From positions 1 to 25,539 of IMG/VR virus record IMGVR_UViG_3300031774_000134: DNA of 25,539 nt; one strand, written 5' to 3'. The notes beneath the pieces are model-generated. The model searched no databases. It saw nothing but the letters and a program-made list of their open reading frames with translations, and was not told the DNA's origin. The stretch comes from a virus. Shown one piece after another: positions 2,405 through 14,746 of this stretch. Both the position numbers and the translations under genes were made by a program. The number at the start of each line of letters is the position of its first letter. The first letter of the stretch is position 1.

Positions 2405-5400
2405 ATGGCTAAAAAGTTTTTAACCGATATAAAAATAGCCGCAGGAGTATATGATTCTAGTGGAGACATAGGGAACAGTGGACAAGTATTGTCTTCAACT
2501 GGATCTGGTGTAAACTGGATAAATACTACTACTTCTGCAAGTGTTATATACCAAGATGGTTTTACTGGCAATGGCAGCACAACTGCTTTTACTTTAGCCA
2601 ATAGTATAGACAACGAAAATAAAACACAAGTGTATATAGACGGTGTATACCAGCATAAAGATAATTATTCTTTAAGCGGTACAACTCTTACCTTTAGCAC
2701 CGCTCCACCAAATTCAAGTGACATAGAAGTTATATCTTTTAGTAGCGTTACAGCTGCTGATGATATTTTATATGATACAGATTTTGCATCTGCTGGTTTA
2801 ATGACAACCAATGGATCGGGTGTGTATAGCATAACTACAAATAATTCTTCAAACTGGAACACGGCTTATACGTATTCACAAGTTGGGCACTTACCTTTAG
2901 CGGGTGGTGCGATAACAGGAGCTATAACCACTAACAGTACGTTTGATGGTAGAGATGTTTCTGTCGATGGAACTAAATTAGATGGCATAGAAGCTAACGC
3001 TACAGCGGATCAAACAAATGCTGAAATTAGAGCAGCTGTTGAAGCGGCAACTGATTCAAATGTATTTACTGATGCTGATCATACTAAGTTAAATGCAATA
3101 GAGGCTTCTGCTGATGTAACAGACACAGCAAATGTAACTGCTGCTGGTGCTTTAATGGATTCTGAATTAACAGATTTAGCTGGTGTAAAGGCTGTAACAA
3201 TATCTGATTTAGCTACAGAAACATATGTAGATACTGCGGTAAGTGATTTAGTTGATTCTTCGCCTGCAACATTAAACACTTTAAATGAACTTGCGGCGGC
3301 TTTAGGTGATGACCCAAATTTTGCAACTACAACCGCCAATAGTATTGGAACAAAACTGCCGTTGGCTGGTGGAACATTAACTGGAGGATTGACAGGAACA
3401 ACTGCTAGTTTTTCAGGAAGTATAACCGCAAGTGGTAATTCAAATAGTTTTGGAAATACGACTATAGCGGCATTATCAGCTTCAACAGGAACTTTTTCAG
3501 CAAGTGTAACAGCAGCAGGAAATTCTAATAGCTTTGGTGCTACAACTTTTACGGGTAATGTAGGTTTTAATGATAGCACTACGTTAAGTTTAGGTGGAAG
3601 TGGAGATCTATTTTTAATTCACGATGCTACAAATTCTATTATAGGAAACTCTACTGGAAACCTAATAATTAGAAACGATGCAGATGATTCAGATATTATA
3701 TTCCAAAGTGATAATGGCAGCGGTGGCCGAGATAATTACTTGACAATTGATGGTGGTGTTGAAAGAATTTTTGTACATAAACTAATGCGTTTTGATGATA
3801 ACGTTGAACTTCGCTTAGGTGGTAATAACGATATAAGATTATATCATAATTCAACATCAGGTAATAATAATTTTGAAAACCATACTGGCGGTTTATTTGT
3901 TACACAATATGCAGATGATGGTAATATTATTTTTAGAAGTGATGATGGCAGTGGGGGAGTTGCTGAATATATAGTAGTTAATGGTGGTGCTGGAAGTGTA
4001 CAATTAAAACATTACGGAAATACAAAGTTTGAAACTACAAGCACAGGAATTGGAGTAACAGGTAATGGAGTATTTTCAGGTGATATTACAATAGGTGGTA
4101 AAACATATCCTAAATTAAATTTAACAGATAATCAAGGTGTAGCAAGAAATTTCAGTATTGGAACTAATAATGAAACATTTACTGTAAGAAATGAAACAGC
4201 AGGCGCTGATGTCTTTACAATAGCAGGTGCAGATAATGCCGCAACTTTTGCAGGTAGTGTTAAAATTGAATCGAATGATGGGTTAACCATACATGCTACC
4301 ACAGATGCGGTAGATGCCAAAATTGTTTTTAGCTCTATTGTTCCAAGCCTCGATCAAAAGGGGACTTTTGCTTACAATCACGCTAATAGTCTTTCTTATG
4401 GAAGTGCTGAAAGCTTTGTAATTAGTGGTACTGAAAGTACAATGACAATACTTGCTGATGGCAAGTTAATGTATAACGAAGGTATATATTCTAAACCCGC
4501 TTCAGGAACTGGGGCAGGAACAAGAAAAGATAGCAATTGGGATACCGCTTACACGTATTCTCAAGTTGGACATTTACCACTAGCAGGGGGAACTGTAACG
4601 GGCGATATAACAATAAGTAGTACTTCGCCTGAATTAAAAATTGTAGATACAAATAGTTTTACAGACGTTAACGATAGATGGATAGTTAGAGGTGGTACAG
4701 ACACATTAATAATGAGATGGTTTGATTGGTCGTTAGGTGCAAATACAGATGCACTAACTTTATCACCGACAGTAGCAACTTTTGCAGGACAAGTAAACGC
4801 AACAAGATTTATATTACCCTCAACAGGAACTACAACTCCAGTTAATCATTATATTTTCACCAATAATACGAATACTGGAACAGGATCAATGACCATCCAA
4901 GCCGGAGGGGGCTCTGCTGGATATGGTGGTGGATTAAAATTATATTCACATTCTCATGCAACCAAACCAGGGTGGGTTCAAGCTGGTATTTCATCTGGCT
5001 CTGGCGGAAAATTTACTGTAAACACAGCAGGTACTGGGGGTGGTAGCGATGTGTTTATGGTTGATGCAAATGGAACTACCATAAATGGTGCCTCACAAGG
5101 CCTTTCATTCCTTGGTGGTAACAATAGAATATATTTTAATGGCCATAGAGCTTTGGAAGGTGCTACAGATGGAGGCATATTGCAAATTGGGGAAGGATAT
5201 AGTCAAATACGTATTCAAGATACAACATTAATTAAATATTTAACAAGTGCAGACTCCTCAACATTTTTAACATTACACAATGATGTAGGTGCGGATTTAG
5301 ATACTCAAAAAACATTTATTGATTTTATTTTTGAAGACGATAATGATAACGACTGGCCACAAGTTAGAATAGGTGCTGAAGTTGGACATAATGGGAATGC

Positions 5401-6820
5401 AAATTCACAGCTAAAAGAGGGTTCTGGTGCTTTTGTAGTTTATACAAATAATGCTTCAACAAATGACCCAGGTAACCCGTCAAATTTAGCCGAAAGGTTT
5501 AGGGTTGATTACCAGGGTCATACAACTGCTACTGGTAGTTTAAGAGCGCCTATCTTTTACGATTCATCAAACACGGGTTATTATACGTATCCGAGTAACC
5601 AATCTGTATTTTATAGATTAAAATTACAAGGCACTGGTACCGCAAATGCTGCTACGTTAGAAATAGACAACCCATCATCATCTGCATTTATTCATTCGGG
5701 TGAATTATTTACCACTAATATGACGGCTGGTCAGGCTAATATATTTGTTATAGGAAAAGAAGGTAGTACTAAAAATTCCGGTTATATAGGATATAATTAT
5801 GCTTCTGCTGGAAGTAATAACAACTACGTAACAATAGGACATTGGGGTGCGGATCATTTATTAAGAATTTATGGGGACGTGATAACAACGTCGCTTAGCT
5901 TTAGGGGTGATAGTGACGTAAGAGGTACTATATTTTACGATTCAAATGATACTGGATATTATGTAAATCCTGCTAGCACTTCACATCTTAATGTTGCAAA
6001 TTATGGATCGTTGACTTGGGACAACTATTCAAACAACCCCACGGCAAAAATTAATGTGGAAGTGGCAGGGGGAAATGCAATAAACATATATAATACACAT
6101 GAAAATAAAGCTTATTTAAATTTTATTGATTCACAAAGTGATGGCACTCAATATTGTAATTTATCTTTTGATTCAGGTAGTAATTATTTTACTCTAAACA
6201 ATATGGGGAACGATACCATGTTTGTTACTAGTGGTGGTTATAGTAAGTTAACAAACAATGGTAATACAACTTGGAACGCTTATAATTTTCACTCCATAAC
6301 TAACAGTGCAGCTGACCAACCTACGGTTATGATATATAGTCACGCTAGTAGTGGAAATGTATATGGTATAAACGTTTTACATAGGTCCACGAGCGCGAAT
6401 ACCTCAGGTAGATTTTTTTTAGGCGCAACTAATAGTGGTGCTAGTGAAAGAATAAAAATATATTCCAATGGTAATATTCAAAATAGTAACAATAGCTATG
6501 GGCAATTATCAGACATAAATTTAAAAGAAAATATTGTAGACGCTACACCAAAGCTAGATGAAATAAATCAAGTAAGAGTTGTAAACTTTAATTATATAGA
6601 TGATATAAACGAAGAAACGAACGCACCAACTAAACAAATAGGTGTAGTAGCACAAGAATTAGAAAAAATATTTCCAGGGTTAGTATATGAATGCGGTGAT
6701 ACAGAAACACCAACTAAATCAGTAAAATATTCAGTATTCGTGCCTATGCTTATAAAAGCAATGCAAGAATTAACTCAAGAAGTAAAAACATTAAAAAATC
6801 AAATAAATGGCATTAACTAA
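2405..6820 (+). CDS. Giant tail fibre with C-terminal S74 intramolecular chaperone
   Basis: This 1471-aa fibre protein begins MAKKFLTDIKIAAGVYDSSG, a segment like other fibre N-termini here. It then has a long beta-rich shaft with repeated modules: NTAYTYSQVGHLPLAGG twice, LNTLNELAAALGDD once, and two copies of an R-(A/G)-(P/T)-IFYDS-x-(N/D)-TGYY repeat near 5540 and 5918. The end is an S74 (endosialidase-type) intramolecular chaperone. It starts at S1369 in SDINLK, with K1374 five residues on as the expected Ser-Lys dyad, then IGVVAQELEKIFPGLV and VPMLIKAMQEL with a terminal coiled coil. In this family the domain trimerises the fibre and then cuts itself off before the serine, which would release a 103-aa fragment. 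The gene overlaps the next fibre by 14 bases. It is probably a host-recognition fibre. Confidence 0.85.
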   Translation: MAKKFLTDIKIAAGVYDSSGDIGNSGQVLSSTGSGVNWINTTTSASVIYQDGFTGNGSTTAFTLANSIDNENKTQVYIDGVYQHKDNYSLSGTTLTFSTAPPNSSDIEVISFSSVTAADDILYDTDFASAGLMTTNGSGVYSITTNNSSNWNTAYTYSQVGHLPLAGGAITGAITTNSTFDGRDVSVDGTKLDGIEANATADQTNAEIRAAVEAATDSNVFTDADHTKLNAIEASADVTDTANVTAAGALMDSELTDLAGVKAVTISDLATETYVDTAVSDLVDSSPATLNTLNELAAALGDDPNFATTTANSIGTKLPLAGGTLTGGLTGTTASFSGSITASGNSNSFGNTTIAALSASTGTFSASVTAAGNSNSFGATTFTGNVGFNDSTTLSLGGSGDLFLIHDATNSIIGNSTGNLIIRNDADDSDIIFQSDNGSGGRDNYLTIDGGVERIFVHKLMRFDDNVELRLGGNNDIRLYHNSTSGNNNFENHTGGLFVTQYADDGNIIFRSDDGSGGVAEYIVVNGGAGSVQLKHYGNTKFETTSTGIGVTGNGVFSGDITIGGKTYPKLNLTDNQGVARNFSIGTNNETFTVRNETAGADVFTIAGADNAATFAGSVKIESNDGLTIHATTDAVDAKIVFSSIVPSLDQKGTFAYNHANSLSYGSAESFVISGTESTMTILADGKLMYNEGIYSKPASGTGAGTRKDSNWDTAYTYSQVGHLPLAGGTVTGDITISSTSPELKIVDTNSFTDVNDRWIVRGGTDTLIMRWFDWSLGANTDALTLSPTVATFAGQVNATRFILPSTGTTTPVNHYIFTNNTNTGTGSMTIQAGGGSAGYGGGLKLYSHSHATKPGWVQAGISSGSGGKFTVNTAGTGGGSDVFMVDANGTTINGASQGLSFLGGNNRIYFNGHRALEGATDGGILQIGEGYSQIRIQDTTLIKYLTSADSSTFLTLHNDVGADLDTQKTFIDFIFEDDNDNDWPQVRIGAEVGHNGNANSQLKEGSGAFVVYTNNASTNDPGNPSNLAERFRVDYQGHTTATGSLRAPIFYDSSNTGYYTYPSNQSVFYRLKLQGTGTANAATLEIDNPSSSAFIHSGELFTTNMTAGQANIFVIGKEGSTKNSGYIGYNYASAGSNNNYVTIGHWGADHLLRIYGDVITTSLSFRGDSDVRGTIFYDSNDTGYYVNPASTSHLNVANYGSLTWDNYSNNPTAKINVEVAGGNAINIYNTHENKAYLNFIDSQSDGTQYCNLSFDSGSNYFTLNNMGNDTMFVTSGGYSKLTNNGNTTWNAYNFHSITNSAADQPTVMIYSHASSGNVYGINVLHRSTSANTSGRFFLGATNSGASERIKIYSNGNIQNSNNSYGQLSDINLKENIVDATPKLDEINQVRVVNFNYIDDINEETNAPTKQIGVVAQELEKIFPGLVYECGDTETPTKSVKYSVFVPMLIKAMQELTQEVKTLKNQINGIN
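6509..6817 (+). other. S74 chaperone domain of fibre 1, with predicted self-cleavage site
   Basis: This sub-feature marks residues 1369-1471 of the 1471-aa fibre. The catalytic-type Ser (SDINLK, first residue) and the Lys five residues later match the Ser-Lys dyad of S74 intramolecular chaperones. Cleavage is expected immediately before the Ser. The rest of the domain (KQIGVVAQELEKIFP, VFVPMLIKAMQELTQEVKTL) shows the family's conserved QE helix and the C-terminal trimeric coiled coil. Confidence 0.8.
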
Positions 6821-9800
6821 AGTAACAGGTGATTTTATAAAAGCGGGTTCAATAACCCAGGGACACTTACATTCAAGTCACGGTATAACAACATCTCACA
6901 TTGCTGAAGGTGATAAGTTATTTTTTACTAATGCTAGAGTTGATTCAAGAATAGGTAGCTTAAGCACATCAGATTTATCTGAAGGAACAAATTTATATTA
7001 TACTGATGCAAGAGCTAGAGCAGCAATTAGCGGTACTGGTTCCTTAAGTTATAATAGTACAACAGGTGTTATGTCATTTACAATGCCTGCTCAGAATACA
7101 TCAAATATTACTGAAGGTAGTAATTTATACTACACAGATGCAAGAGCTGACGCTAGAATTGCATTACAAGTTGGTAGTAACTTAGATTTAAGTAGTAAAT
7201 CAACTAGTGATTTAAGTGAAGGAACAAATTTATATTATACAGACGCAAGAGCTGATGCAAGGGTTGCTTTAATAGTTGATTCAGCACCTGGAACTTTAAA
7301 TACATTAAATGAATTAGCAGCAGCTCTAGGTGATGATGCAAACTTTAGCACAACAGTTACAAATAGTATTGCTTTGAAAGCACCATTAGCTTCACCATCG
7401 TTTACTGGTAATGCAACTTTTGCAGGGAATATAACAACAACTGGTAGTAGTATAACAGTAGATCCTGCTTCTGGTGATGCAATTTTAGTTTTACAAAGTC
7501 CAACACAAACATTAAGAATAGATCAAAATAGTATAAGAACTAGCACAAACTCTCCAATTTCATTTTTAACTAATAGCACAACAGCACTTGTGCTAGATAC
7601 GTCACAAAATGCAACTTTTTCAGGAGATATTACTGTAACAGGTGGCAGTAATTTATCTACTTTAGATTTGAATGCAGGAACGGTTTGGGATGCTACCACC
7701 CAAGGCACAGGAAAAGGTGCATTACATTTAGACCCTAATAGTGCCACTGACCACGCAGGAGCGGCAATAACATTTGGTGCTTCTGATGCTTCTAATGGTA
7801 CAAATGCGCAAGCAGGTATATATATTAGATCAGATGGTAGTTATGGTACTAAGATGTATTTTTCTACAACTGATTCATATGCTACAGGTTCTAAAACAGC
7901 AATGAACATATTGCATAATGGTCAGGTTAATATCACAAGAAGCAATCTTGTTGTAAACAGTGATGTTAGAGCGACTGTATTTTACGACTCTAATGATACT
8001 ACTTATTACATAGACCCCGCAAGCACATCTACATCAGGAAAATTTAGACAATATGTTAACATAGGTGATAGTTCATCTTATAGTTCAAATACAGGTACTT
8101 GGGGAGCTAGATTAAATGTTGTAGACAATGTACACGCTAAAATAGATGTTGGACAAGATGCTGACTCAATGTTGTCTACTTGGTATACTCACACTGGTCA
8201 TAGTGGTGCTTATTTTGGTATGGTAACAGGACATAACTTGTATTTAACCTCACATAACGCTACTAGACAAGTATTATTTAATGGATATAGTCAAGAAAAT
8301 GGCTCATATAGAGCACCTATATTTTACAGTTCAACTGATACAAACTCTTATTTGAATAATGCACAATTAGTTTTAAGAAGTGGTGACCCTACAATATATT
8401 TTAGGGATACAAACCATAGGTCAGTAGCATTACATAATAATTCAAATAGATTCTACGTACTTGGTGCGCCAGTTGATTCTACTAGCTACACACAAATAAG
8501 TGGCGTTTGGCCCTGGTATGTTCAACTAGATACTAATGATGTTTATACCGGTAGAATAGGATACGCAGGTAACTCTTATAGAGCACCTGTATTTTATGAT
8601 TCAAATGATACCTCATACTTTTTAAATCCTTCCGCTTCTGCCGGAAATGCATTAAAAACCATTGGCGATTGGCGACAAACTAGTAATTCTTGGTCTGGTG
8701 AAGTTGGAGGTAAAATGCAGTATCATAGTGATTCTTGGTATTTACAAGCTGCCGCATATGTACATTTTAGAAACGCTTCAGGTACCAATACTTTCCACGT
8801 TAGCGGCGGCGGTGTTGCGACAGTTTATGATTATTTAATTGGTACTAACTCATTAAGATCACCTATATTCTACGACTCAGATGATACGAATTATTATGTT
8901 GATCCCGCTGGAACATCTAGATTATATCATGCCCAAAATAACAATGGTAGTGAATTTATACATTGTAAACACTCAGGCTCAGACTTTGCTAGTGGTACTT
9001 TAGTAACAACTGACATTCCGGCTAATGCAACCAATGGAGCATCTTATATTATAGAAGTTACCGGTAAAAGTTATTCAGGAGAGCCACCTTTCGCTTTTAA
9101 AGCTCAAGGATATTTGTATAATAATACTATAATTAACCACAGTGGTATTAGTTATGGAAAACACTTAACTTCTACTAACCAAATAAAAGTTTTTAATCAT
9201 TCTGATAATAAACTTGCTTTTTGGTGGCCAAGAATATCTTATTGGAATTCATTTGAAGTAAGAGTAAGAGATGCTGGCGGAGGTTCAAGAAATAGAGCAC
9301 TGACAGTTGTTAATTCAACAGAGCCTTCTTCAAGTAAAAAAGTTACAACAACACTTTCTCAGGCTGCTGTATTAGGTTACAATTATGGAAGTGGAAGTTT
9401 ATATTCTGATCGATTATATGATTCAAATGACACGTCTTATTATGTGGATGCAAATAGTACAAGTAACATAAATAAAATACAAAGTAGTTCAAAACAAGCG
9501 GCGCCAAGATGGGATACAGCTTTTTACGTGTTGCAAGCGCAACATTGGTATGGTGATACTGGTAGTCAAGAAATGTTTATTGGTGAGAGTGGTAATACTA
9601 TAAATATAAGAGGTTCAATAACAGCTGCTGGTGTAATTGATTGTAATGCTGGTCATGGCGCAATAAATATTACAAATTCTTCTATATTATCTTCAGCATC
9701 ATCATCTTGGACAGGTAATCCAGGTGGTGCAGGTAAAATACAATACCATTCAAATAGATGGTATATAGTTGCAGATTCTTCATCAAACAGAATTGTTCAA

Positions 9801-11057
9801 TTCAGAAGAGACGGTAGTGATGTATCTTATATTGATAATTCAGGTAGATTAATGAATGCACCTGATTTAAGAGTACCTATATATTACGATACAAACACTG
9901 CTTATTACGGCGACTTCGGTAGTCACACTCATCTTAACACTATGAGTTGTGCTGGTGGTCTTCTTTTTGGTGATAATTATGGTGTTGGTGTTACTGGATT
10001 ATACTCAAGTTATAGAATACAAACCATATTTAATATGGGCGCTTCATATAAACTTCCAAACGATGGTAACTCAGTTGGAAATGCATATGGTTTATATTGG
10101 TCACACCAGAATGCTGGGACTAAAGGTGGGGCTAACAACTTAGCTTCTCACGGTCTGCTAATAATAGAGGGTGGTAGTTACAAAGGGTCTTGGGGTGGTG
10201 GAAGACTAGTTACAACTAGTGATATTAGAGGTACTATATTTTATGATTATAATAACACTGGTTATTATACAGACCCCGGATCAACTAGTGTTTTAAACGC
10301 GTTGCAATTTAATTATACACAGCATGGTTCTGCTAATAATATAAGAATGGGTAATAGCACCACTATGAATGCTATTTCATCTGGTACTAACAACGCAGCG
10401 TTTGGTGTTGAGGCACTAGGGGGTTGTAGTACTGGTAGTAGAAACTTTGCTTACGGTTATGCGGCATTAGGTAATTTAAGTAGTGGTGGTAGTAATATAG
10501 CTATGGGTGACGCAACGGGTTACAATGTAACTTCTGGAAGCAATAACTTGTTATTTGGTCAAAATGCTGGTAGAACAGGTTATCAGTCCCCTTACCAGTC
10601 TATAGCTGGGATAACAAGTGGTAGTAACCAAATACATATGGGTAATGAAAACCATACTACAGCAAGAATACAGATTAGCTGGACAGTAAATTCAGATGCA
10701 AGAGATAAAACAGATGTTAATCCTTTAGATTTAGGATTAGAATTTGTAAAAAAACTTAATCCTGTTACGTACAGATGGGACAAAAGATCAGACTATGAAG
10801 ATAGAACACCTGATGGAACTAACAAGTTACCAGAATTAACACTAGGGTTTTTAGCACAAGAAGTTGAAGTTGTTGAAAAATCGTTTGGCTATGATGTAGC
10901 TAATAAAACTAATTTAGTTGTTGATAGAATTGTTGACCAAGATCATTACGGTATAACATATGAAAAAATGGTTCCGGTGTTAACTAAGGCAATACAAGAG
11001 CAACAAGCAATTATAGATGACTTGAAGTCAAGACTTGAAACTTTAGAAAATAATTAG
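6807..11057 (+). CDS. Second giant tail fibre with YadA-like repeats and S74 chaperone
   Basis: This 1416-aa fibre begins MALTKVTGDFIKAGSITQGH. It then has three or four EG(T/S)NLYYTDARA(D/R)AR repeats (residues about 40-160) and a LNTLNELAAALGDD module also present in the preceding fibre. Next come seven diverged FYDS-x-DT-x-YY-x-x-P repeats (7965-10289) and a YadA-head-like set of repeats (about residues 1191-1258). The C-terminal S74 intramolecular chaperone starts at S1296 (SDARDK, Lys at 1301) and continues with LGFLAQEVE and YEKMVPVLTKAIQEQQ. Self-cleavage would release 121 residues. The start codon lies inside the end of the previous fibre gene (14-base overlap), so the two fibres are likely co-translated. 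It is probably a receptor-binding or long tail fibre. Paralogous modules shared with fibre 1 suggest duplication or domain shuffling. Confidence 0.85.
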   Translation: MALTKVTGDFIKAGSITQGHLHSSHGITTSHIAEGDKLFFTNARVDSRIGSLSTSDLSEGTNLYYTDARARAAISGTGSLSYNSTTGVMSFTMPAQNTSNITEGSNLYYTDARADARIALQVGSNLDLSSKSTSDLSEGTNLYYTDARADARVALIVDSAPGTLNTLNELAAALGDDANFSTTVTNSIALKAPLASPSFTGNATFAGNITTTGSSITVDPASGDAILVLQSPTQTLRIDQNSIRTSTNSPISFLTNSTTALVLDTSQNATFSGDITVTGGSNLSTLDLNAGTVWDATTQGTGKGALHLDPNSATDHAGAAITFGASDASNGTNAQAGIYIRSDGSYGTKMYFSTTDSYATGSKTAMNILHNGQVNITRSNLVVNSDVRATVFYDSNDTTYYIDPASTSTSGKFRQYVNIGDSSSYSSNTGTWGARLNVVDNVHAKIDVGQDADSMLSTWYTHTGHSGAYFGMVTGHNLYLTSHNATRQVLFNGYSQENGSYRAPIFYSSTDTNSYLNNAQLVLRSGDPTIYFRDTNHRSVALHNNSNRFYVLGAPVDSTSYTQISGVWPWYVQLDTNDVYTGRIGYAGNSYRAPVFYDSNDTSYFLNPSASAGNALKTIGDWRQTSNSWSGEVGGKMQYHSDSWYLQAAAYVHFRNASGTNTFHVSGGGVATVYDYLIGTNSLRSPIFYDSDDTNYYVDPAGTSRLYHAQNNNGSEFIHCKHSGSDFASGTLVTTDIPANATNGASYIIEVTGKSYSGEPPFAFKAQGYLYNNTIINHSGISYGKHLTSTNQIKVFNHSDNKLAFWWPRISYWNSFEVRVRDAGGGSRNRALTVVNSTEPSSSKKVTTTLSQAAVLGYNYGSGSLYSDRLYDSNDTSYYVDANSTSNINKIQSSSKQAAPRWDTAFYVLQAQHWYGDTGSQEMFIGESGNTINIRGSITAAGVIDCNAGHGAINITNSSILSSASSSWTGNPGGAGKIQYHSNRWYIVADSSSNRIVQFRRDGSDVSYIDNSGRLMNAPDLRVPIYYDTNTAYYGDFGSHTHLNTMSCAGGLLFGDNYGVGVTGLYSSYRIQTIFNMGASYKLPNDGNSVGNAYGLYWSHQNAGTKGGANNLASHGLLIIEGGSYKGSWGGGRLVTTSDIRGTIFYDYNNTGYYTDPGSTSVLNALQFNYTQHGSANNIRMGNSTTMNAISSGTNNAAFGVEALGGCSTGSRNFAYGYAALGNLSSGGSNIAMGDATGYNVTSGSNNLLFGQNAGRTGYQSPYQSIAGITSGSNQIHMGNENHTTARIQISWTVNSDARDKTDVNPLDLGLEFVKKLNPVTYRWDKRSDYEDRTPDGTNKLPELTLGFLAQEVEVVEKSFGYDVANKTNLVVDRIVDQDHYGITYEKMVPVLTKAIQEQQAIIDDLKSRLETLENN
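7965..10289 (+). repeat. Seven dispersed FYDS/YY repeats in fibre 2
   Basis: Diverged copies of a roughly 20-residue module begin near 7965, 8307, 8577, 8853, 9399, 9867 and 10224. The consensus is R-x-P-(I/V)-FYDS-N-DT-x-YY-x-D-P-x-STS. Clear examples are ATVFYDSNDTTYYIDP and SPIFYDSDDTNYYVDP. Two further copies lie in fibre 1 (5540 and 5918). Each copy precedes a different beta-rich segment of 80-180 residues, so the module looks like a linker or clasp between interchangeable shaft or adhesin domains. Confidence 0.8.
10377..10580 (+). repeat. YadA-like head repeats in fibre 2
   Basis: About four tandem units of roughly 15-16 residues fit the pattern S-G-x-N-x-x-x-G-x-x-A: GTNNAAFGVEAL, GSRNFAYGYAAL, GSNIAMGDATGYN and GSNNLLFGQNAG. 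This is the left-handed beta-roll repeat of YadA-type trimeric adhesin heads, known from bacterial autotransporters and also from phage fibres upstream of S74 domains. It implies that the fibre is trimeric here. Confidence 0.7.
10692..11054 (+). other. S74 chaperone domain of fibre 2, with predicted self-cleavage site
   Basis: Residues 1296-1416 of the second fibre. The motif SDARDK provides the Ser and the Lys five residues later. The usual Leu before the Lys is Asp here, unlike SDINLK in fibre 1. The conserved AQEVE helix, the GITYEKMVPVLTKAIQEQQ segment and a terminal heptad-like helix (LKSRLETLENN) follow, as in other S74 domains. Confidence 0.78.
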
Positions 11058-12159: not shown

Positions 12160-13719
12160 ATGGAATATAATAACCCAAGTGAGATAGTTAAAGATTTGTC
12201 CTTCGGGGCAGATGCTAACAATAAAATAATGATAGGTGTAGGAAAATTAACACAAGCTGTTAAGTCTACACTAGGAGCTTCAGGAAAATGTGTAATATAT
12301 GAAGATTCATTAGGTAAACCGGTTATAACTAAAGATGGTGTAACCGTAGCTGAATCAGTAATATTATTTGATCCTTTAGAAAATATAGGAGCAACACTTT
12401 TAAAAGAAGCTGCTAAAAACACAGTGAAAGAAGCAGGAGACGGTACCACTACGGCAACCGTCCTTGCTTACTCACTTTTAAAAAATTGTAAAAAAGAAAA
12501 ATATAACATAAGAGATATAAAACTAGGTTTACAAACCGGTTTATTTAAAATAAATAATTACTTAGATAAAATATCTATTGATGTTAAACATGATAAACTT
12601 AAAGATGTTAGCACTATATCGGCTAACAATGATAGTATTTTAGGTTCTATAATTGCTGATGCCTACAATAAGGTGGGTAAAAATGGAGTTGTATTAATGG
12701 AAGAGTCAGAAACTGAAAAAACTTATTACGAAAACGTAGAAGGTGTACAGTTTGACTCTGGTTTGAAATCAAATCATTTAACTACAAACGAAAATAAAGA
12801 TAAATCTATTTTAGATAATCCTTATATATTAATAGTAGCTTCTCCAATTACTAATATTAGAAAAATACAAGCTGTATTAGAACATATAATTAAAACAAAA
12901 AGAAGTTTATTAATTGTGGCTTCTGTAGATCAACAGCCTATGTCTGCATTATTAACTAATAAAGTTAAAGGTAATATTAGGGTTAACGTTGTTGATCTTC
13001 CTGGTTTTGCTTCTACTAAAAGAGATACGATAGAAGATTTAGCCTGTTTAACTGGGGCTAAAATAATAGATGAGCAACTAGGAGATGATTTAGACTTAAT
13101 CCAACCTGATGTGTTAGGTGAATGCTTAAAGTCCATTACAGATGATAAAAACACTGTTCTTACTATAGATGAAGTTAATGAAGAAGCTAAAGAAAGAATA
13201 AAAAGTGTGTATAGCAAAATAGAAACAGAGACTAATGCTTTTATAAAAAATAAATTAGAACAAAGAATAGCAATGTTGACAGGTTCTGTTGCTATTATAA
13301 AAGTTGGTGCTAATTCAAAAGTAGAGTTAAAAGAAAAAAAAGACAGAGTTGAAGACGCGATATATGCAACTAAAGCAGCGCTACAAGAAGGTATTGTTCC
13401 AGGAGGTGGAGTTGCACTTTTAAATGCATCACAAAAAATTAAAGCTGAAAATGTAGGAGAAGAAATATTATTAAACTCAATAAAATATCCTTATTCTGTT
13501 ATAATAGAAAATGCTGGTTTACCATACTTAGAAAGTAATAAAAAAGGATTTGGAATAAATGTTGTAAATGGTAAAGAAACTAATATGTTAAAGGCTGGAA
13601 TAATAGATCCTGTATTAGTTACAAAAACAGCTTTAAAAAATGCAGTTAGTGTTGTTAGTACTATAATATCTGCAGATTGTGTAATTTCTAATATGAGAAT
13701 GAATGCAGGCGATAAATAA
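12160..13719 (+). CDS. groEL: Phage-encoded GroEL-like chaperonin (Hsp60)
   Basis: This 519-aa group I chaperonin (E. coli GroEL has 548 aa) should fold client proteins in an ATP-driven cage. ATPase residues are intact: TLG at 37-39, D59 in ITKDGVTVAES (E. coli D52), DGTTTAT at 94-100 (D87 loop), GGG at 415-417, D399 in VEDAIYATKAA (D398), and D483 in IIDP (D495). The apical domain is about residues 195-375. Departures, from by-eye alignment: the N-terminus is 7 residues longer. Ring-ring residues R452 and E461 are replaced by S446 and P455. Apical hydrophobics Y199, Y203 and L234 become L, H and Q. The GGM tail is absent (it ends NMRMNAGDK). The start at 12160 is the only suitable ATG. The end overlaps groES by 17 bases, in the reverse of the bacterial order. 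Likely clients are capsid or fibre proteins (inference). Confidence 0.95.
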   Translation: MEYNNPSEIVKDLSFGADANNKIMIGVGKLTQAVKSTLGASGKCVIYEDSLGKPVITKDGVTVAESVILFDPLENIGATLLKEAAKNTVKEAGDGTTTATVLAYSLLKNCKKEKYNIRDIKLGLQTGLFKINNYLDKISIDVKHDKLKDVSTISANNDSILGSIIADAYNKVGKNGVVLMEESETEKTYYENVEGVQFDSGLKSNHLTTNENKDKSILDNPYILIVASPITNIRKIQAVLEHIIKTKRSLLIVASVDQQPMSALLTNKVKGNIRVNVVDLPGFASTKRDTIEDLACLTGAKIIDEQLGDDLDLIQPDVLGECLKSITDDKNTVLTIDEVNEEAKERIKSVYSKIETETNAFIKNKLEQRIAMLTGSVAIIKVGANSKVELKEKKDRVEDAIYATKAALQEGIVPGGGVALLNASQKIKAENVGEEILLNSIKYPYSVIIENAGLPYLESNKKGFGINVVNGKETNMLKAGIIDPVLVTKTALKNAVSVVSTIISADCVISNMRMNAGDK

Positions 13720-13960
13720 TTACATCATAATAGAAAAAATAAAAGAAGAATCAAAAAAAGTTAATGGACTTATATTAACTAATAATGATAAAAAAGATAT
13801 ACGTTATTTAAAAGGTCACGTAATAAGTGTTGGTAACCAAACAGATGGTTTAAAACCAAATGATAAAATTTATTATGATAAACATGCTGGCCATATGGTC
13901 GAATATAACGATAAAACATATTATGTTATTAGACAACAAGATGTTGTTATTGTTATATGA
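13703..13960 (+). CDS. groES: GroES-like co-chaperonin, short form
   Basis: This 85-aa protein has the GroES layout: first strand NYIIIEKIKEE (6-16), a mobile loop KKVNGLILTNN (18-28), strand GHVISVGN (38-45), LKPNDKIYYDKH (50-61), and final strands KTYYVIRQQDVVIVI. The loop tripeptide LIL (23-25) replaces IVL of E. coli GroES, which docks on the GroEL apical domain. Between VGN and the GD-like KPND turn, only a few residues remain where GroES has its roof hairpin (E. coli is 97 aa). T4 Gp31 likewise lacks this loop, which enlarges the chamber. The start inside the groEL end (17-base overlap) places M1 where GroES normally begins. The stop overlaps the next start as ATGA. It probably caps the neighbouring GroEL, the host GroEL, or both. 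Confidence 0.85.
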   Translation: MQAINNYIIIEKIKEESKKVNGLILTNNDKKDIRYLKGHVISVGNQTDGLKPNDKIYYDKHAGHMVEYNDKTYYVIRQQDVVIVI

Positions 13961-14397
13961 AACTTTCTTCAAGTGATTTAAAAGAATTACAAATATTAAA
14001 ATACTATAGAATAGTTAGAAAGTGGGCTTGTAAAACATATAAAATAAAAGAAGCGGACTTAGAACTTCTTATATATTTAGACTGTTTGAATAGATTTTCT
14101 ATAAAAGATTTTAAAGATGGTGTTTACACATATAGTTGGGATAAACATCGTTGGGAAAGATTAAGAAACGAGGGTTGGATAGATGTTTGGAGAAATAGAA
14201 ATAGAACAACTATAAAATATAGCATATACTGTGTTTCTTTTAAAACAAAACAATTAATTAGTAGAGTTTACAGAATACTATTAGGTGATGAAGATGTACC
14301 TGTTACTAGAAAAAATATTTTTTATAAAAATAAATCATATACTGATAAAGTTTTTAATAAAGCTTTTGATGATATGATAAAAGATAAAGAACGTTAA
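13957..14397 (+). CDS. Winged-helix (MarR-like) DNA-binding protein candidate
   Basis: This 146-aa basic protein fits a winged-helix pattern. An N-terminal helix (LQILKYYRIVRKWACKTY, residues 11-28) leads to a helix KEADLELLIYLDCL (32-45) and a short F-IKDF helix. A candidate recognition helix and wing follow (KHRWERLRNEGWIDVW, then RNRTTIKYSIYCVS), with a C-terminal helix KTKQLISRVYRILLG. This resembles MarR-family regulators and similar DNA-binding proteins in phages of Bacteroidota. It could regulate late genes or bind DNA during packaging. The fold is inferred from pattern only. It begins in an ATGA overlap with groES, so the two are likely translationally coupled. Lys/Arg content is high and base composition matches its neighbours. 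Confidence 0.55.
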   Translation: MKLSSSDLKELQILKYYRIVRKWACKTYKIKEADLELLIYLDCLNRFSIKDFKDGVYTYSWDKHRWERLRNEGWIDVWRNRNRTTIKYSIYCVSFKTKQLISRVYRILLGDEDVPVTRKNIFYKNKSYTDKVFNKAFDDMIKDKER

Positions 14398-14414: not shown

Positions 14415-14489
14415 ATGCCTTACGGAAAAAAATCAAAATTAGTTAAAAAAATCTCAAAGAAAAAATCTAAGAAAAAATCTAAGAAATAA
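14415..14489 (+). CDS. 24-aa Lys/Ser-rich basic peptide
   Basis: This is a very short frame starting MPYGKKSKLVKK and continuing as KKKSKK repeats. Three points support it as real. The start is preceded by a TTAAAATTAAAATT leader of the kind used by other genes here. It exactly fills the space between the winged-helix gene and the next gene. Its TAA overlaps the next ATG as TAATG. Small MPYGK-starting basic peptides also occur in other marine phages. More than half of the residues are Lys, so it may bind nucleic acid, but this is inferred from charge alone. Confidence 0.5.
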   Translation: MPYGKKSKLVKKISKKKSKKKSKK

Positions 14490-14746
14490 TGCCTGCAAAA
14501 AGAGTAAGAAAAACTACTAAAGGTAAAAGTAGAAACTTTCGTACTGTTAAAGAAGGCGCCGGTATGACTAAAGCTGGTGTAAAAAAGTATAGAAAAAACA
14601 ACCCTGGTAGTAAATTAAAAACCGCTGTAACAGGCAAAGTAAAAAAAGGCAGCAAAGCAGCTAAACGTAGAAAATCTTTTTGTGCTAGATCAAAAGGTTG
14701 GACAGGTGAAAGAGGCAAAGCAGCTAGAAGACGTTGGAAATGTTAA
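14489..14746 (+). CDS. Arg/Lys-rich small protein (DUF6321-like)
   Basis: This 85-aa, strongly basic protein has segments GAGMTKAGVKKYRKNNPGS, KLKTAVTGKVKKGSKAAKRR, SFCARSKGW and a C-terminal KAARRRWKC. The order GAG, YRK-NPGS, LKTAVTG, SKAAKRRKSFCARS and RRRWKC matches a small family widespread in tailed phages, which I recall as DUF6321. Its function is not established. The two conserved Cys (68 and 85) and the dense positive charge could suit nucleic-acid binding or virion DNA condensation, which is inference. It begins in a TAATG overlap with the preceding 24-aa basic peptide and is followed 10 bases later by another basic protein. Confidence 0.75.
   Translation: MPAKRVRKTTKGKSRNFRTVKEGAGMTKAGVKKYRKNNPGSKLKTAVTGKVKKGSKAAKRRKSFCARSKGWTGERGKAARRRWKC

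Follow-up and report, generated by a model that had tools for sequence, protein, structure and literature searches.

A phage GroEL lacking the GroEL inter-ring contacts, a candidate single-ring chaperonin with its own GroES

The window analysed here is the whole of a 25.5 kb IMG/VR record (25,539 nucleotides), a virus fragment with PHROG matches for its large terminase, portal and structural genes. The relatives of its terminase include those of the Flavobacterium elemo phages, of phages of Cellulophaga and Maribacter, and of a podophage from Manatee Spring. By sequence, the window is related to podophages of Flavobacteriia, and the terminase kinship makes a host among the Flavobacteriia probable. 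At 2405-6820 and 6807-11057, two tail-fibre-like proteins of great length (1471 and 1416 residues) are encoded. Both have a terminal Peptidase_S74 (chaperone of endosialidase) domain, and these fibres thus have intramolecular chaperones in addition to the phage GroEL/GroES pair. This pair consists of groEL (12160..13719, plus strand, 519 residues), coding for a group I chaperonin, and groES (13703..13960, plus strand, 85 residues), which overlaps the 3' end of groEL and matches Pfam Cpn10 (5.2e-15) and PHROG GroES (9e-17). All parts of groEL discussed below lie on the same strand.

The phage GroEL was compared with several sets of sequences. The family set comprises 86 non-redundant close GroEL relatives from IMG/VR, with the window counted in and hundreds of further matches present in the database; its members are mostly marine phages with their own GroEL and GroES. 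The cellular set holds 81 proteobacterial-type GroELs, including that of E. coli, and is extended to 85 by one GroEL each of Bacillota, Fusobacteriota, Cyanobacteriota and an Enterococcus-like type. The remaining sets comprise 74 other viral GroELs and 17 named phage GroELs. AlphaFold2 was used for monomer predictions, with a Citrobacter GroEL (98% identical to that of E. coli) as the control.

In the family, groES lies directly downstream of groEL, overlapping or abutting it, in 85 of the 86 members, while in the other viral set it is located upstream of groEL where found (51/74). The groEL-then-groES order with a short overlap (loci L001-L031 and L132-L211) is opposite to the arrangement usual in bacteria, where groES precedes groEL. 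Directly 3' of groES, a gene for a 146-residue protein (13957-14397) occurs at 84 of 85 family loci, with a mean column identity of 82%, higher conservation than that of GroEL, and no known family; profile searches with it returned nothing informative. Cellulophaga phi38:1/Calle and Maribacter Panino encode remote relatives of it (28-32%), and since these do not adjoin groEL, a role as a chaperonin accessory is unsupported. A small basic protein of 85 residues (14489-14746), with a DUF6321 match (5.6e-11), is encoded in 48 of the 85 family loci.

The groEL product is a group I chaperonin by its full-length Cpn60 fold and its sequence. It matches Pfam Cpn60_TCP1 (9.7e-54) and PHROG groEL (8.6e-129), passes the cut-off of the NCBIfam GroEL subfamily NF000592, and is 38% identical to E. 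coli GroEL over the whole protein by BLASTP. Many GroEL/Hsp60 chains of similar conformation match its AlphaFold2 model, with TM values of about 0.8-0.87. The equivalents of the ATP-site residues T30, G32, D52, G86-T91, D398, G415 and D495 are invariant or nearly so in the window and the family. An earlier sequence-only reading of this DNA had described the ATPase residues as all kept, and this is borne out for T30, G32, D52, D87, G88, T89-T91, I150, D398, G415 and D495, but Ala takes the place of P33 in 85/86 members of the family, the window included. The allosteric salt-bridge positions R197-E386 and D83-K327 are lost in the family, where R197 is replaced by Ser or Cys, E386 by Lys, and K327 by Asp or Asn.

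Values of dN/dS between close relatives of the phage GroEL range from 0.03 to 0.12, which indicates strong purifying selection and rules out decay of the gene; the same reading had also judged the gene not to be decayed, from its ATPase residues. It is highly improbable that the protein builds no folding cage, whether as a decayed or moonlighting chaperonin or through mixing of its subunits with host GroEL. Such an explanation could draw on the loss of both salt-bridge pairs and on the change of several residues at the substrate/GroES site, but it is countered by the purifying selection, by the nearly invariant ATP site, and by the groES found directly downstream in 85 of 86 members.

The elements that join the two rings in GroEL are altered throughout. 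Helix Q (E. coli 462-471) carries S463 and V464, two of the contacts mutated in the single-ring variant SR1. This helix is absent in 84 of the 86 family members and kept in 85/85 cellular GroELs, a baseline formed almost only by Proteobacteria; in an alignment, an ancestral FCB GroEL (double ring) has equivalents of R452, E461, S463 and V464, all of them present. The spacing from N457 to D495 amounts to 32 residues in the window and 38 in E. coli, with 32-34 in 84/86 family members, 38-39 in 81/81 Proteobacteria, and 38 in the single GroELs of Bacillota, Fusobacteriota, Cyanobacteriota and the Enterococcus-like type. Over the shorter interval from N457 to G477, 13-15 residues are found in 84/86 family members (the exceptions being L186 with 18 and L184 with 21), compared with 19-20 in 81/81 cellular GroELs and at least 17 in 74/74 other viral ones. 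In the place of helix Q, the model of the window protein (mean pLDDT 85.8) has a coil over residues 452-463 (13513..13548; mean pLDDT about 90), a loop with six residues deleted and a hypervariable sequence within the family. The Citrobacter control, on the other hand, has a helix at 462-471, identical to the published limits of helix Q (PMC7185714). A comparison of helix propensity over the helix Q segment was uninformative.

The two other contact elements are affected as well. Helix D and the turn that follows it (residues 96-116, 12445..12507) have lost three residues at the contact region K105-A109, the helix being one turn shorter than that of GroEL; the helix D region has 22-26 residues in the family against a constant 25, and the helix is predicted at 96-112 in the window protein and at 89-108 in the control. 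The segment formed by helix N, a short N-O loop and helix O (residues 418-443, 13411..13488), delimited by alignment and AlphaFold2, lacks seven residues around E434, and this contact site is missing or unrecognisable. Helix O is predicted at 432-440 (434-446 in the control), and the spacing from G416 to P450 is 26 residues in 85/86 family members as against 32-34 in cellular GroELs (33 in E. coli). At the C-terminus, the last strand and a short end (residues 507-519, 13678..13716) are without the GGM tail, whose absence had been observed before and extends to 86/86 family members; a GG-rich tail is found in 74/81 proteobacterial GroELs. Taken together, the spacing census and the models show that all three contact elements (the end of helix D, the E434 site, and R452 with helix Q) are shortened or lost. 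The GroEL inter-ring contacts are thus absent from the phage GroEL, and its GroEL-type ring-ring interface is almost certainly gone.

The loss of this interface had originally been proposed from four substitutions within 13495-13539, a stretch that indeed encodes S446-N460 (SVIIENAGLPYLESN), with P444, N451, G453, P455, L457 and E458 all at the positions given for them. The equivalence of S446 (13495..13497) to R452 is secure, as the spacing between P450 and N457 does not vary across the family, the cellular GroELs or the other viral ones, and the position is unconstrained across the family (K in 23, A in 17, S in 12, E in 8 and H in 7 of 86). The ungapped pairing of P455, L457 and E458 with E461, S463 and V464, however, fails, and alignment methods disagree around the six-residue deletion: phmmer pairs P455 with E461 and has 463 and 464 deleted, BLASTP aligns L454, Y456 and L457 with 461, 463 and 464, and MAFFT has 461-464 deleted in 86/86. 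None of the four SR1 contact residues is retained under any of the three. Two or three of the four residues are thus shifted by profile alignment, which speaks against the original pairing, but the cause of the shift is a deleted segment, and this strengthens the conclusion that the interface is lost. By themselves, the four SR1-position substitutions would be weak evidence, because phage GroELs that keep helix Q and some cellular GroELs vary there too: R452 is retained in only 30 of the 74 other phage GroELs with helix Q, and position 461 is Asn in the Fusobacterium and Trichormus GroELs.

A count of the residues shared with E. coli proved of little help. For the 14 inter-ring residues listed in PMC8774168, whose numbering is that of E. 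coli plus one, the identity to E. coli is 9% in the family (35% gaps), 39% in the other viral GroELs and 73% in the cellular set. In the window, 2/14 inter-ring residues are kept, a low identity that does not reach significance on its own (Fisher p=0.10); intra-ring residues have diverged to the same degree, with 3/23 kept, and are identical in only 16% in the family. Low identity at the inter-ring sites was therefore dropped as a proof, the intra-ring sites having diverged equally, and variability within the family was used in its place. With the family reduced to 90% redundancy, entropy at the ten inter-ring positions still alignable averages the 95th percentile, compared with the 44th for intra-ring, the 28th for substrate/GroES and the 25th for ATP positions. 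This excess is significant against the remaining equatorial positions (p=5e-7) and against the intra-ring ones (p=8e-6), and it persists with gaps ignored. In cellular GroELs the inter-ring entropy is not raised (p=0.17), and other viral GroELs are intermediate, at the 75th percentile. Among the family sequences, this analysis leaves no conserved bottom-face interface.

These values also bear on the idea that this is a conventional double-ring GroEL in which co-evolution has made the interface unrecognisable, as it has the intra-ring contacts. The divergence of the intra-ring residues in the window (3/23 kept), in a protein that must still form a ring, and the variation of cellular GroELs at 461 and 463 would be compatible with it. 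Nevertheless, intra-ring positions are moderately conserved within the family, as they are in cellular GroELs, whereas the inter-ring ones are the most variable of all, and helix Q is deleted rather than substituted, making such an interface improbable. With helix Q deleted, helix D and the N-O loop shortened, the bottom face unconstrained, and purifying selection elsewhere, the earlier view of a functional chaperonin with a weakened or different interface is upheld.

The co-chaperonin shows changes of its own. Its mobile-loop tripeptide (IVL in E. coli) is LIL in the window and mostly hydrophobic in the family (LEL, LIM, LLI or LIL), and the equivalent of I25 is Leu or Phe in all family GroES. 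Of 79 distinct GroES of the family, 32 have Glu as the middle residue of the mobile loop (GLEL). The roof hairpin (equivalents of G44-G62) has 8-9 residues, compared with 17 in E. coli GroES, and the phage GroES appears from its sequence to be missing the roof loops, like T4 gp31, which is without them (PMC6318259). On the GroEL side, the apical site carries L234->Q in 86/86 and Y203->H in 74/86 members, suggesting that the apical binding site has been altered in step with the mobile loop. These changes matter because GroEL-SR does not release wild-type GroES, and a weakened GroES contact restores its function in vivo (PMC5575113). By analogy, the phage pair may solve lid release through a weakened contact, although the apical changes might increase, and not decrease, the affinity for the lid.

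The best explanation of these features, and a somewhat probable one, is that the protein is a functional phage group I chaperonin that has lost the ring interface and acts, at least mainly, as a single heptamer capped by its own GroES. One phage GroEL ring would bind ATP and substrate, and the cognate GroES, encoded by the overlapping downstream gene, would cap it. The lid would then depart after hydrolysis without any trans-ring signal, since the re-tuned contact between the apical site and the mobile loop is proposed to be weaker than that between SR1 and GroES. The likely clients of such a chaperonin would be phage virion proteins.

Ring number is here inferred, and the chances that the phage GroEL works mainly as a single ring are put slightly above even. 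Against it, the GroEL mutant E461K retains the 14-mer form in crystals (2eu1), and the chaperonin of phage EL, in which helix Q is missing and helix D is shortened, forms double rings in the apo and ADP states that split with ATP (PMC7185714). The main rival is therefore an EL-like behaviour, with weak or re-registered double rings that are held by new 1:1 bottom-face contacts, form with ADP or in the apo state and come apart when ATP binds. In addition to EL itself, human mHsp60 lends it plausibility: the two inter-ring salt bridges of GroEL are missing from this protein, which can be isolated in single-ring form but uses double rings too (PMC8292379). However, EL builds its contact from a longer helix N, an additional helix N2 and the long loop 479-503, while the window protein is shorter here, not longer: G415 and D495 are 67 residues apart, whereas E. 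coli GroEL has 80 residues in this interval and the EL protein about 92. Moreover, the family retains no conserved bottom-face residues from which a shared new interface could be made, and EL-like double rings are accordingly regarded as rather unlikely.

Should the single-ring reading be true, this natural GroEL, paired with its own GroES and lacking a ring interface, would reveal the way in which evolution, outside mitochondria, achieved lid release from one ring. Trans-ring ATP signalling is held to be necessary for the release of GroES and substrate, and the single-ring reading would test whether folding cages need two rings. There is an even chance that the family represents a large natural phage lineage with an obligate single-ring GroEL and its own GroES, combining a roofless lid, the lack of a tail and the lack of a trans-ring signal, and its pair would then be the first of its kind known outside mitochondria. 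Since at least 86 non-redundant natural variants are available, alongside related phages whose GroEL still has helix Q, the transition from double to single rings would be testable. The case also bears on the question of single-ring ancestral group I chaperonins (PMC12696368).

GroEL in Cellulophaga-type marine phages was already known (PMC5332604), so that the mere presence of a phage groEL is not new. No report of ring-interface loss in this lineage was found in the literature searched; the principal study of chaperonins in marine viruses, Marine et al. 2017 (ISME J), lies outside it and may mention these features. In a quick tree with several long branches, the family forms one clade (SH-aLRT 100), with Maribacter phage Panino and Flavobacterium phage elemo as the nearest named rows (96), and lies far from EL and OBP. 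The region of helix Q is also shortened in Cellulophaga phi38:1/Calle and phi14:2, Panino and OBP, for which the same tree, with its long branches, asks at least three changes. The Cellulophaga and Panino phages resemble the window as phages of Flavobacteriia with this shortening, but the Cellulophaga GroELs are distant (about 38% identity), the lengths of helix D and the N-O loop differ in phi38:1/Calle, phi14:2 and Panino, and the losses of helix Q in these phages and in the family are probably separate. The podophage with the closest terminase (62%), MW202828, arranges groEL and groES as the window does (L292:25934-27562); its GroEL keeps the helix Q residues and is only distantly related to that of the window, offering a natural comparison.

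Among the characterised phage chaperonins, EL gp146, OBP gp246 and AR9 gp228 are likewise encoded by phages. In EL, helix Q has been replaced and helix D is shorter, and OBP, reported to be single-ring (PMC9598537), is short in the helix Q region. AR9, reported to be single-ring as well, is not short there, so that the deletion of helix Q is no universal mark of single rings. These are giant-phage proteins about 25% identical to GroEL, of which the window protein is a closer relative; with phmmer, EL gives a weak match in two pieces (2.6e-22), compared with about 1e-97 for GroEL, and membership in the EL/OBP/AR9 group was rejected on this match and on the position of the family among GroEL-like phage proteins in the tree. 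The sequence-only analogy with phage chaperonins stands as regards the change of the interface, but EL, OBP and AR9 act without a co-chaperonin (PMC9598537), and the conserved adjacent groES argues against such a mode of action here.

Compared with E. coli GroEL/GroES, the phage pair has the same domains and ATP site, the 38% identity given above, and a GroES partner with a mobile loop, but the phage GroEL is without helix Q, the GGM tail and the R197/E386 pair, helix D and the N-O loop are shorter, the gene order is groEL-groES, and the roof hairpin of GroES is shortened. The engineered single ring SR1 (R452E/E461A/S463A/V464A) shares the absence of the same four contacts. Unlike SR1, the phage case is natural, a helix is deleted instead of four residues being substituted, the K105-A109 and E434 sites are changed as well, and the GroES is its own and re-tuned. 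T4 gp31 and RB49 CocO are also phage-encoded GroES analogues, but they use the host GroEL, in place of which a phage GroEL is found here. Finally, human mitochondrial Hsp60/Hsp10 resembles the phage pair in lacking the GroEL inter-ring salt bridges, existing as a single ring and working with a lid, and differs from it in that double-ring forms are found too. Human Hsp60 retains the helix Q region.
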